Source: Thermoanaerobacteraceae bacterium (lineage in GTDB: Bacteria; Bacillota; JADQBR01). From it: a DNA stretch of 63,104 nt. The translations under genes were made by a program, and so were the position numbers. The notes beneath the pieces are model-generated. The model ran no database searches. It was not told the origin of the DNA and saw only the letters and a list, made by a program, of their open reading frames with translations. The DNA is taken from assembly GCA_017656305.1 (NCBI GenBank), contig JACDOG010000014.1:1-63104 (forward strand). Direction: 5' to 3'. How positions within the stretch are numbered: position 1 is the stretch's first letter; the number at the start of each line of letters is the position of its first letter. Below, one piece after another: positions 57,283 through 62,231 of the stretch.

Positions 57283-58689
57283 ATGGCATTAAAACGTGAG
57301 TACGGTGCAGAACAGCCGTTCTGGAAGTTAGGCCCCTTCAAGGTCAGACTCCCACTGGTGCATTACCGTTTTGAAGGTGCCGATTACCTGCAAGGACTCA
57401 TCATGTGTGCGGTATGCCTGTCCATTATTCCCCTGCTTCAGGAAACACTGGGCATGCCCTTTGAGGTGGCCCTGGCCATTGTGGTGTTAAACGGTATCCT
57501 TTACTGCCTGCACGTGCTGCTGGGTGACCCCGTCGTTCCCGGCTGGATTACCCCGGCTATTCCGCTGCTGGCAGCATACGTGACTTCTTTTGAGCCTGGA
57601 GTGCCCAGGATACACGCCCTGGCTGCCTTTGAAATTACACTGGGTGTGTTTGTTATCTTCCTGGGAGCCACCGGACTGGCCCAGAAATTTATCCGCTACG
57701 TGCCGAATGCCATCAAGTCAGGTGTAATTCTTGGCGCGGGTTTTGCCGCCGTCATGATGATTTTCAAGGAAGGCGGCCGGTTTGAAAAGTACCCTTACAC
57801 CATTACTATTGCCGTCGGTATTGCCTTCTTGATTCTCTTTTCCAAGGGTTTTGCCGCGCTCCGGCAGAAGAGCAAGTTCTGGAACCGTTTTTCTGATTTG
57901 GGAATTTTACCGGTCATCCTGCTGGGGATTGTGATTGCACCAATCTTTGGCGAGGCACCCTGGCCGGAGATTCAGTGGGGTATCTCCCGTCCTGATTTCA
58001 TTACTTTGTTCAAGGAATACACCCCGTGGGGCGTGGGCTGGCCCAGCGTGAGCATGTTTATCAAGGCCATTCCCATGGTCCTGGCCGTTTACATCGTCCT
58101 GTTTGGTGACGTAATCCAGAGTCAGGCACTGGTAGCAGATGCCAATATGGTCAGGGAGGACGAGTATATTGACTACAACCCCAACAGGGCACACATGATT
58201 TTTGGTCTCAGAAACAGCCTGATGGGTATGTTCGGGCCGGATATTTCCATGTGTGGTCCGCTATGGGCAGCCATGCAGGTGGTGGTCTGCGAGCGTTACA
58301 AGCACGGTAGAGAAGCCATGGATTCCCTGTTCAGCGGCGCCGGCTGGTTCCGTTTCGGCACCCTGACCGGGTACCTGCTGCTTCCCATAGTAACGCTTAC
58401 CAAACCCACCCTGGGCGTGGCGCTGGCACTGACCATGCTGATACAGGGCTACGTCAGCGTGCGTATAGCCGTGGAAAAATCCTTCAACCAGAGAGATATC
58501 GGCATCGCCGGTGTCATGGGTGCCGTGCTGGCCACCAAGGGTGCCGCATGGGGCTTTGCTGCCGGTATTGTGCTGACACTGCTGATATACGGAAAGGATT
58601 TCTTCAAGGATACATCCGTGCTGGAAGGTGCAAGACCGTATATGGGAGTTCCGACACCTGCTTCTGAACAAACTGCGGTAACTGAATAA
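57283..58689 (+). CDS. Polytopic permease of the NCS2/SulP-like (UraA-fold) superfamily
   Basis: 468 residues from ATG 57283 (AAGGAGTG upstream), with about 12 hydrophobic segments. Features such as YLQGLIMCAVCLSIIPLLQ, GDPVVPGWITPAIPLLAAY, NAIKSGVILGAGFAAVMM and GLRNSLMGMFGPDISMCGPLW fit the 7+7 inverted-repeat transporters. Substrate unknown; the operon with alcohol and aldehyde dehydrogenases suggests an organic acid, benzoate-like acid or alcohol. Driven by the sigma-54 promoter. Confidence 0.78.
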   Translation: MALKREYGAEQPFWKLGPFKVRLPLVHYRFEGADYLQGLIMCAVCLSIIPLLQETLGMPFEVALAIVVLNGILYCLHVLLGDPVVPGWITPAIPLLAAYVTSFEPGVPRIHALAAFEITLGVFVIFLGATGLAQKFIRYVPNAIKSGVILGAGFAAVMMIFKEGGRFEKYPYTITIAVGIAFLILFSKGFAALRQKSKFWNRFSDLGILPVILLGIVIAPIFGEAPWPEIQWGISRPDFITLFKEYTPWGVGWPSVSMFIKAIPMVLAVYIVLFGDVIQSQALVADANMVREDEYIDYNPNRAHMIFGLRNSLMGMFGPDISMCGPLWAAMQVVVCERYKHGREAMDSLFSGAGWFRFGTLTGYLLLPIVTLTKPTLGVALALTMLIQGYVSVRIAVEKSFNQRDIGIAGVMGAVLATKGAAWGFAAGIVLTLLIYGKDFFKDTSVLEGARPYMGVPTPASEQTAVTE

Positions 58690-58711: not shown

Positions 58712-59893
58712 ATGATGGCAAAGAAACTCAATAACTTCCAGACAGCCGGAACGGTGGTCATCGGGACCGGGGCGGTCAAGTCGGTTCCCGATATGGTAGA
58801 GCGGCTGGGCGGAAAGAAAGTGCTCATCATCACCGACTCTGTTATCAAGGAAGTGGGCCTGCTGGATGAACTGCAGGCCGTGCTGGACGAGGCTGGTATA
58901 GAGTACGGTGCCTTTCTCGGCGTGGAACCCGAGCCGCGCCTGGAAATCGTGGAAGAATGCCTGAAAGTTATCAAGAAAGGCGAGTATGACCTGCTCATCG
59001 GTTTTGGCGGTGGCAGCAGCATTGACATTATGAAGTCGGCCTCCATTCTGGTGACAAACCCCGGAACCATCAACGACTATATTGGCGTCAATTTAGTTCC
59101 CAACAAGGGTTTGCCCATGATTGCTATACCCACCACGGCGGGTACGGGCAGCGAAGTGACGGCCATTTCCATCCTGTCGGACCAGAAGGAAGAGCTGAAA
59201 AAAGGCGTGGTCAGCCCGTATCTCCTGCCCGACGTGGCACTGGTAGACCCGTACCTGATGCGCACCATGCCGGCGAAAGTGACGGCTGCCACGGGTATGG
59301 ATGCCCTGACCCATGCCGTTGAAGCCTATATCTCCGTAAACGCCTTTCCGGCCACAGACGCCCTGGCCAAGGAAGCCATCGTCTTGATTGCCAGAAATTT
59401 ACGGACGGCCGTGATGAACGGGGATGACATGGAAGCCAGGGAGAAAATGGCCCATGCCGCTACCCTGGCGGGAATGTCCTTTGCCAATGCCGGTGTGGGC
59501 GCGGTGCATGCCCTGGCATACCCCCTGGGCGGCAAGTACCACATACCCCACGGCGTGGCCAACGCGCTGCTGCTGCCCTACGTCATGGAGTACAACTGCC
59601 TGAGCAACCTTAGCAAGTTTGCCGACATGGCGGAACTGCTGGGAGAGGACGTTACCGGGCTGAGCGACCGTGAAAAGGCAGTGGTGGCTGTAGAAGCCAT
59701 GAAACAGCTGGCTGTGGACGTGGGTATTCCCACCAGCCTCCAGGACTTTAATATCCCTGAAAGCGCTATTCCTATCCTGGCGGAAGGTGCCATGAAGGTA
59801 ACAAGGTTACTGGCAAACAACCCCAGAAAACTGACCTACGAGGAAGTGGAGCAGATTTACCGCAACGCCTGGGCAGGCAAAAGCAATCAATAA
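58712..59893 (+). CDS. Iron-containing alcohol dehydrogenase (group III)
   Basis: 393 residues; ATG 58712 (second ATG 58715) after AGGAGG. NAD-binding phrase FGGGSSIDIMKS, IPTTAGTGSEVT, and the metal-binding His pattern GAVHALAYPLGGKYHIPHGVANALLLP. It interconverts a primary alcohol and an aldehyde with NAD(P)H. The next gene would oxidise the aldehyde, so the pair forms a path between alcohol and acid. Confidence 0.93.
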   Translation: MMAKKLNNFQTAGTVVIGTGAVKSVPDMVERLGGKKVLIITDSVIKEVGLLDELQAVLDEAGIEYGAFLGVEPEPRLEIVEECLKVIKKGEYDLLIGFGGGSSIDIMKSASILVTNPGTINDYIGVNLVPNKGLPMIAIPTTAGTGSEVTAISILSDQKEELKKGVVSPYLLPDVALVDPYLMRTMPAKVTAATGMDALTHAVEAYISVNAFPATDALAKEAIVLIARNLRTAVMNGDDMEAREKMAHAATLAGMSFANAGVGAVHALAYPLGGKYHIPHGVANALLLPYVMEYNCLSNLSKFADMAELLGEDVTGLSDREKAVVAVEAMKQLAVDVGIPTSLQDFNIPESAIPILAEGAMKVTRLLANNPRKLTYEEVEQIYRNAWAGKSNQ

Positions 59894-59910: not shown

Positions 59911-61665
59911 ATGGCTAACGGATTTTTTGGCCGCATCGCACGCGTTGACCTCACCAAACAGCAGTGGACGGAAGAAATCCTGGACGAACAGCTCTACCGC
60001 GCCTACCTGGGCGGTAAGGGGCTGGGCTCGTACCTGCTCAATGAAAGCGTCGCCGCCGGAACGGACCCCCTGGGCCAGGACAACGCTCTCATCTTCGCCG
60101 TGGGTCCGGTAACCGACACTCCCATCTACGGCTCCAACCGCTACGGGGTGTACAGCAAATCACCCCTGACCGGCGGCTATTCTGAGTCTTATTCCGGCGG
60201 TAAAGTGGCCAGGGCTATGAAAGGCACCGGTTACGATGCCGTTGTCATTACAGGTAAGGCAGAACGACCGGTATATTTAGAAATAAGCGACCAGGGTATA
60301 AAATTTCATTCCGCAGAGCACCTCTGGGGCAAGGACTGCTACGTCACCGAGGATAAGCTGCTTGAGGAAGTGGGGCAGCCAAATGCCCAGGCGGTGGTCA
60401 TCGGGCCTGCCGGAGAAAAGCTGGTGCGCTTTGCCTGCCTGGAAAACAACTACTGGCGCTCTGCCGGAAGAACCGGGCTCGGCGCCGTGGCCGGCTCTAA
60501 AAACTTAAAGGGAATTGTCTTTTACGGGGAGGCCAAATGCCAGGTCTTTGACCCGGAAGGTCTCAAGGCGGTGGCCAAAAGCATCTATGAAAAAGGTAAG
60601 GATGACGGCGGGGTCAAGTCCTACCAGACCTACGGCACGCCTGCCCTGGTAGCGGTGCTGAACAGCGTCGGGGGCTTTCCCACCCGCTACTGGTCAAAAG
60701 GGACCCTGGAAGGATGGGAAAACATCTCTGCGGACTACCTGGTGGATAACTACAAGGTCAGGCCCAAGGCCTGCCCGCCCTGCTTCATGACCTGCGGCAA
60801 GGTGACCACCATTCCCGAAGGAAAGTACCAGGGACTGACGGTGGAAGGTCCCGAGTACGAAACCCTCTACGCTTTTGGCGGGCTGTGCGGCATTACCGAC
60901 ATGGATGAGATAATCTACTTCAACGACCTGTGCGACCGGTACGGCCTGGATACCATCACCGCCGGCAACATGGTGGCTTTTGCACTCTACGCCGTTGACA
61001 AGGGCAGGCTGGACCTGCCGTACAGTTTTGGCGATGCCAGGGCGGTGGAGAAACTGCTGGTGCAGATTGTGGAAAGAGAGGGCATAGGTGACATCCTGGC
61101 AGAAGGAGCAGTGGCCGCCGGTGAGCACCTGGGCCTGGCGGAAGACGCTATTCACGTCAAGGGCATGGAACCGGCAGGATATGACCCCCGGGTGCTGCGC
61201 GGCATGGGCCTGGCCTATGCAACTTCAGCCAGAGGCGCCTGCCACCTGCGGGCCACTTTTTACAAACCGGAACTTGCCGGCATGATTGACCCGAAACAGG
61301 TGGAAGGAAAGGCAGAGCTGTTTGTGGAATTTGAAGACAGGCTGGCCATCTATGACACCCTCATCCTCTGCCGGTTCTACCGCGACCTGATCCAGTGGGA
61401 GGAACTGGAACAGATTCTAAAGTACACCACGGGCTGGGACCTGACCCGGGAAGAATTGAAGGAGATTGCCAACCGGGTGGTGACTACCACCAGGAAGTTC
61501 AATCTCAAGCAGGGCATCACCAAAAAGCATGACACCCTGCCGTCCCGCTTCTTCAAGGAAGGCCTGGCCGACGACATTCCCGCCTATCCCAAAGAGGACC
61601 TGGACAGAATGCTCCGGGAATACTACTCGCTGCGCGGTTGGGATGAGGAAGGAGTACCCAGGTAA
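59911..61665 (+). CDS. Aldehyde:ferredoxin oxidoreductase (tungsten-type AOR)
   Basis: 584 residues from ATG 59911 (AAAAAGGGGGC upstream). N-terminal GFFGRIARVDLTKQQW and GGKGLGSYLL, pterin-contact YSKSPLTGGYSESYSGGK, cluster ligands CPPCFMTC with the fourth Cys in DTLILCRFYRD, and pterin motif GMGLAYATSARGACHL. Slightly shorter than 605-residue archaeal AOR. It oxidises aldehydes to acids with ferredoxin, or the reverse under high reducing power. A hairpin terminator follows before the selenoprotein gene. Confidence 0.93.
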   Translation: MANGFFGRIARVDLTKQQWTEEILDEQLYRAYLGGKGLGSYLLNESVAAGTDPLGQDNALIFAVGPVTDTPIYGSNRYGVYSKSPLTGGYSESYSGGKVARAMKGTGYDAVVITGKAERPVYLEISDQGIKFHSAEHLWGKDCYVTEDKLLEEVGQPNAQAVVIGPAGEKLVRFACLENNYWRSAGRTGLGAVAGSKNLKGIVFYGEAKCQVFDPEGLKAVAKSIYEKGKDDGGVKSYQTYGTPALVAVLNSVGGFPTRYWSKGTLEGWENISADYLVDNYKVRPKACPPCFMTCGKVTTIPEGKYQGLTVEGPEYETLYAFGGLCGITDMDEIIYFNDLCDRYGLDTITAGNMVAFALYAVDKGRLDLPYSFGDARAVEKLLVQIVEREGIGDILAEGAVAAGEHLGLAEDAIHVKGMEPAGYDPRVLRGMGLAYATSARGACHLRATFYKPELAGMIDPKQVEGKAELFVEFEDRLAIYDTLILCRFYRDLIQWEELEQILKYTTGWDLTREELKEIANRVVTTTRKFNLKQGITKKHDTLPSRFFKEGLADDIPAYPKEDLDRMLREYYSLRGWDEEGVPR

Positions 61666-61668
61666 ACA

Positions 61669-61698
61669 GGGTGCATCCCCGCGGGGGTGCACCTTTTA
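61669..61698 (+). terminator. Terminator between the AOR and selenoprotein genes
   Basis: GGTGCATCCCC (61670-61680) pairs with GGGGGTGCACC (61683-61693), followed by TTTTA. It would lower, not necessarily stop, read-through to the next gene. Confidence 0.75.
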
Positions 61699-61722
61699 CC
61701 TTCAGTGAGGGAGGAGCAAGCC

Positions 61723-61995
61723 ATGCAGTTTACCATTACCCCGGAAGCAAGGGAGTATATCCTGAAAAAGACTGATACCATCACCATCAAGCTGATAAAC
61801 TGCGGTACCTGAAGCGGCCGAGACAGCACGCTCGCCGTGCTTGCGGGCACGCTAATGGAGCCCAACCTGGCCGCCTTTGAAGCGGAAGGGATAAAAATAT
61901 ATCTATCTCGGGACCTTCTCGTTCGTGAGCAGCACCTGAAAATATACCTGGAAGAGCAAGGTGCCGCCCGGCGCCTCGAGGTAACCGGCATCTAA
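61723..61995 (+). CDS. HesB-like/CC-Se-motif selenoprotein with in-frame UGA
   Basis: 90 residues if the TGA at 61810-61812 is read as selenocysteine (codon 30). ATG 61723 follows GGGAGGAG. The frame reads MQFTITPEAREYILKK..., then INCGT-U-SGRDST and continues open for 60 more codons through GIKIYLSRDLL and LEVTGI to TAA. This is the two-part beta pattern of small HesB-like proteins, in which a Cys/Sec pair lies near residue 27-30; here it is C-G-T-U, a CxxU redox motif. Downstream of the UGA a 6-base-pair hairpin AGCACG/CGTGCT begins at 61825, where bacterial SECIS elements occur. Terminators before and after mark it as a unit. Redox role inferred from the CxxU motif and the AOR neighbour. 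Confidence 0.82.
61810..61851 (+). promoter_or_regulatory. UGA codon and candidate bacterial SECIS element
   Basis: UGA at 61810-61812. Stem AGCACG (61825-61830) with CGTGCT (61836-61841), loop CTCGC; an alternative stem CGTGC (61836-61840)/GCACG (61847-61851) has the loop TTGCGG. Which fold binds SelB cannot be decided by eye. Confidence 0.55.
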
Positions 61996-62000
61996 CCCCA

Positions 62001-62026
62001 GCCTCCGAAAAGGAGGCGATTTTTTT
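62001..62026 (+). terminator. Terminator of the selenoprotein gene
   Basis: GCCTCC and GGAGGC pair around GAAAA, then ATTTTTTT, six bases after the TAA stop. Its placement supports the full-length reading through the UGA. Confidence 0.85.
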
Positions 62027-62231
62027 GTGGTATATTTTTCTCCGCTTTACAAGTAGGAATTTTGCACCGTATGTTGAAATAGAAAAGGTGGCGTCAGCAT
62101 TATTCTTACTCTGAGTAATTGTAACTTTTTTGTGAATTGGCGCACAAATCGCAGGGATTTAGTAAAAAAACACAGAACTACCAGATAAAGGAAGTTGGAG
62201 AACAAGATACGCTGTGAAAGGAGCGAAACCT

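Follow-up and report, generated by a model that had tools for sequence, protein, structure and literature searches.

Identification of the selenoprotein gene

The plus-strand segment from 61723 to 61995 of the 63,104-nucleotide stretch of DNA analysed here (the window) is, judged from sequence comparison and with a probability that we place at about 0.93, a selenoprotein gene in which an in-frame UGA at codon 30 (61810–61812) is read as selenocysteine (Sec), giving a product of 90 residues. The gene is one more member of a family that is already known, NF041239 (‘CC/Se motif family (seleno)protein’), which was first predicted in Moorella thermoacetica, is held in NCBIfam and, in the 2026 selenoprotein inventory (PMC13188914), is entered as a predicted family with the motif C-x-x-U and one Sec; the family has never been characterized. 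What is new here is a defined bSECIS hairpin, an IscA-like fold in which Sec occupies the first ligand position, the presence of four paralogues in one genome and a tandem-Sec branch linked to AOR (aldehyde ferredoxin oxidoreductase) genes.

The frame opens with an ATG at 61723, 6 nt downstream of a good ribosome-binding site, GGGAGGAG (61709–61716), reaches the TGA at codon 30 and then runs through 60 sense codons to a TAA at 61993–61995, closely followed by an intrinsic terminator-like hairpin and T tract (62001–62027; −12.5 kcal/mol). These features had been described in an earlier, sequence-only reading of this DNA, which also expected standard gene finders to miss or split the gene, and the frame, the terminator and the fate of the gene in automated calling were all as it had proposed: the ORF caller returned only a 52-residue fragment at this locus, from a GTG at 61837 to 61995, together with a longer antisense frame that is probably spurious. 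What automated gene calling would divide or overlook can now be regarded as a firm selenoprotein gene.

The read-through product scored 61.7 bits against NF041239 (54.7 bits in a six-frame search), for which the curated cut-off is 40 bits, with residues 1–89 aligned to positions 1–90 of the 91-position profile. The assertion that the protein forms one domain only if the TGA is decoded was borne out by scoring its two parts separately on a family profile from which the window copy had been withheld: residues 1–29 gave 28.8 bits and residues 31–90 gave 30.2 bits, the best of 2000 shuffled controls for each reaching 6.8 and 6.2 bits respectively, and NF041239 spans both. That the locus encodes a 29-residue peptide and, independently, a 52-residue protein starting at GTG 61837 therefore deserves almost no credence; it has in its favour the mechanical ORF call of 61837–61995, but the family domain covers both parts in one frame and a start at this GTG would lose conserved strands of the fold.

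The family was found in 89 of 398 genomes of the phylum, and these genomes, with one other record (L056), supplied 135 distinct members. Homologues extend across position 30, as had been anticipated, and carry TGA (97/135) or Cys (33/135) at the aligned column; the commonest residues in the column that follows are Cys, Ala, Sec and Gly. The redox pair proposed from the C-x-x-U motif stands in part: Cys27 and Sec30 are present here, and this motif is as given for the family in PMC13188914, but only 25 of the 135 relatives have a Cys three residues N-terminal of the Sec position. Two adjoining paralogues on the minus strand of another genome (G046; L072:2407–2685 and L072:2703–2990) differ in this region, one being Cys-Cys and the other Cys-Sec, the Sec of the latter occupying the second motif position and not the first. 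In a further genome (L060, G382:C13) the Sec column of some family members is occupied by Cys, and an in-frame TAA or TAG lies near their start; these members keep a SECIS-like stretch and are situated among ACR3/ArsP/ArsR-like genes, and a recent change from Sec to Cys, followed by decay, is likely for them.

A conserved bSECIS hairpin downstream of the UGA

The bases after the TGA contain a candidate bSECIS hairpin, GCUCGC-CGUGCUU-GCGGGC (61830–61848; plus strand), with a 6 bp stem, a 7-nt loop that begins 23 nt after the UGA and has GU at its second and third positions, and a predicted energy of −7.6 kcal/mol. The bSECIS criteria as set out in PMC13188914 are a loop of 3–9 nt, a stem of 4–16 bp, a G in the first two loop positions, a distance of 16–37 nt from the UGA and an energy of at most −7.5 kcal/mol; the window hairpin agrees with all of these, its energy only barely.

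Taken alone this hairpin is not unusual, and the argument for it comes only from position-specific comparison across the family. In the window, 36 of 200 shuffles folded equally well, all six pairs survived in 16% of synonymous randomizations, the free fold of the segment favoured a competing hairpin and the segment folded no better than its shuffles (z 0.06). Sec and Cys members were likewise indistinguishable by generic folding energy (z −0.39 and −0.36 respectively; P 0.98), and an Rfam search gave no relevant match. In the 66 relatives that share this spacing, a five-pair stem begins at codon +7 after the UGA and encloses a seven-base loop that starts CGUG in nearly all of them; all five pairs form in 63/66, and the loop valine is coded by GTG in 63/66. 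Third-base entropy is 0.37–0.71 bits at codons +7, +8, +9 and +11, against 1.97 bits at the equally invariant Pro +14, for which four codons are used about evenly. One stem pair varies between G-C, A-U and G-U, and because of this switch residues +8 and +11 covary (Ala/Ala or Thr/Val). The covariation score of the hairpin, 0.312, was reached by none of 500 shuffles and compares with at most 0.091 in slid controls. The earlier suggestion that a bSECIS element be sought here was thus met by a hairpin that is conserved in the family with compensatory changes. The pairing dictates the amino acids, Pro-Ala-Val-x-Ala-Gly or Pro-Thr-Val-x-Val-Gly, a signature that is useful for annotating other members.

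A covariance model made from 35 other members, with the window gene left out, placed its top match in the 63-kb window at 61810–61854 (E 0.00085; the runner-up had 0.56). Over the whole genome the same model listed three paralogues, which are themselves among the sequences from which it was built.

Selenocysteine machinery, paralogues and the possibility of a broken gene

All four of the genes to be expected if UGA30 encodes Sec, selA, selB, selC and selD, are present in the genome: selA, selB and the tRNA-Sec gene form one cluster on contig C5, and selD has an in-frame TGA of its own. Contig C21 carries three further copies of the family, and all of them have TGA at the corresponding position. 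Around these three genes (L057:5988–13222) are approximately nine copies of a palindromic element, TTCACATTGGGGACGGTTCTNNATGTGAA, which looks REP-like.

Given the Sec machinery and the three TGA-bearing paralogues, the TGA is unlikely to be an isolated sequencing mistake or nonsense mutation, and we consider it highly improbable that the window gene is a Cys-type relative broken at codon 30, with the TGA a true stop. Such an origin would fit the divergence of this copy, which has Leu at two near-invariant family prolines (37 and 44) and for which two genomes of the same taxonomic family have no family member beside AOR; it would also fit the FastTree phylogeny, where the window copy clusters with one Cys and two Ala members (support 0.86), apart from the branch with conserved adjacent TGA codons. 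Against it, however, TGA stands at exactly this column in 97 relatives and in the paralogues of the same genome, the 60 codons beyond it still match the family, and the hairpin has been kept despite changed codons (CCU to CUC), with its pairing intact.

Sec insertion at codon 30 is thus supported by the NF041239 match, the TGA and Cys homologues, the complete machinery and the conserved hairpin. UGA30 would be decoded by the host SelA/SelB/tRNA-Sec/SelD system, steered by the hairpin within the coding sequence; this role of 61830–61848 is well supported by the comparative sequence data.

Predicted fold and relation to IscA/HesB proteins

The AlphaFold model of the 90-residue product had a pLDDT of 87.3, and its top Foldseek matches were SufA and IscA (E 1.5e-5; probability 1.00). 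In the model alignment Sec30 superposes on Cys35 of Escherichia coli IscA, the first metal-binding cysteine. The window protein therefore shares with the IscA/SufA A-type carriers (PF01521) the fold and the first-ligand position, but has Sec in place of Cys35 and lacks the C-terminal C-x-C; there is no Cys beyond residue 30, so that of the three Cys ligands of IscA only the first position is represented. The absence of the C-x-C makes an ordinary [2Fe-2S] A-type carrier role unlikely.

Pfam Fe-S_biosyn (PF01521) gave 15.6 bits, below the gathering score of 26.3, the best E value among other family members being 8.6e-5, and a profile search of PDB sequences found no match where the fold comparison did. 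TIGR01911 (HesB-like selenoprotein) did not match the window protein at E values up to 10, and the IscA/HesB family NF038090 gave 18.3 bits against a cut-off of 85; the window protein has the IscA/HesB-type fold in common with both, but its motif is U-S-G, and not the U-x-G-P given for HesB-like/IscA-HesB selenoproteins in PMC13188914. The description ‘HesB-like’ in the sequence-only reading is therefore apt for the fold, with SufA and IscA as the top structural matches, but not for membership of TIGR01911, the classical HesB-like selenoprotein family. According to the model, the protein resembles IscA in fold, but by sequence it does not qualify as an A-type carrier.

Gene neighbourhood and a tandem-Sec branch

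The window gene lies downstream of an AOR gene (59911–61665; PF02730 and PF01314), itself preceded by an iron-containing alcohol dehydrogenase (ADH) gene (58712–59893), all on the plus strand. Between AOR and the selenoprotein gene is a 12 bp hairpin with a U-rich tail (UUUUACC) at 61668–61702 (−21.8 kcal/mol; z −3.55), a terminator-like structure that would act as a terminator or attenuator, and no convincing promoter was found in this interval; these two observations leave co-expression of the two genes uncertain. With this hairpin intervening, the functional tie to the AOR/ADH operon that had been proposed is not borne out by the sequence and stands as conjecture. The AOR link of the window copy is only suggestive, though its product may have a role alongside AOR in this host.

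Adjacency to AOR as a general family trait was ruled out, as it occurs at 10 of the 135 loci, eight of which belong to one branch. Whereas the window copy follows AOR, other NF041239 members lie beside thioredoxin, GPR or XRE genes, and the relatives collected here adjoin thioredoxin (17 loci), CcdA, a MoeA-like gene, or arsenite efflux and ArsR genes, these names having been assigned by reading the sequences and not by family scans. Such neighbours point to thiol/selenol redox or metalloid chemistry.

The branch in question, which we call UU, comprises eleven members in ten genomes (L061–L071) with tandem TGA-TGA codons and mostly the motif G-U-U-N, examples being L068:2582–2872 and, on the minus strand, L062:2420–2713. 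Three of its members scored 33.7–44.7 bits on NF041239, near the cut-off. The UU hairpin occupies the same place as the family bSECIS but is different, with a GGU-type loop, CCCAUCAGGUUUGAUGGG, and compensatory variants. At eight of the eleven loci the gene lies 40–375 nt downstream of AOR on the same strand, and some loci have a recognizable ThiS/MoaD-like gene between the two and a ferredoxin-type gene after the UU gene. As several of these loci come from related genomes, they amount to approximately three independent observations of the UU–AOR association. The adjacent-Sec motif is absent from the part of the 2026 inventory consulted (PMC13188914), and in the literature consulted we found no earlier report of such a branch directly downstream of AOR.

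Possible function

The fold and the gene neighbours lead us to propose, tentatively and at slightly less than even odds, that the product is a small selenol/thiol protein of the anaerobic cytosol. It would fold as IscA/SufA (HesB type), with Sec30 at the site of the first metal-binding cysteine of IscA handling reducing equivalents, persulfide or a soft metal or metalloid, and with Cys27 perhaps as its resolving partner. It is possible, though doubtful, that the IscA-fold selenoproteins represented by the window copy and the UU branch are accessory proteins of AOR-type tungsten enzymes, which they would serve by sulfurating the cofactor, by protecting the enzyme reductively or by transferring electrons; if true, the AOR link of the tandem-Sec branch would provide the first testable function for an uncharacterized selenoprotein family.

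A true A-type carrier of Fe-S or persulfide, with Sec replacing one ligand and serving the maturation of Fe-S or Mo/W enzymes, the adjacent AOR among them, would account for the IscA/SufA fold, the position of Sec30 and the proximity of AOR to the window gene and to the UU genes, in the latter case with a ThiS/MoaD-like gene intervening. We nevertheless regard it as rather unlikely, since the ligands after residue 30 are missing, the Fe-S_biosyn score is below its cut-off, most members of the family have no AOR gene close by, and a terminator-like hairpin separates AOR from the window gene.

Two further observations concern AOR in this genome. Upstream of the ADH/AOR pair, at 57283–58689 of the window, is a permease gene with a weak, below-cut-off match to the molybdate transporter family MFS_MOT1; its product may transport an oxyanion that the tungsten enzyme AOR requires. 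On another contig (G000:C3:179892–180163) a fragment of an AOR gene (PF02730), which contains two TGA codons in frame, is probably a remnant.
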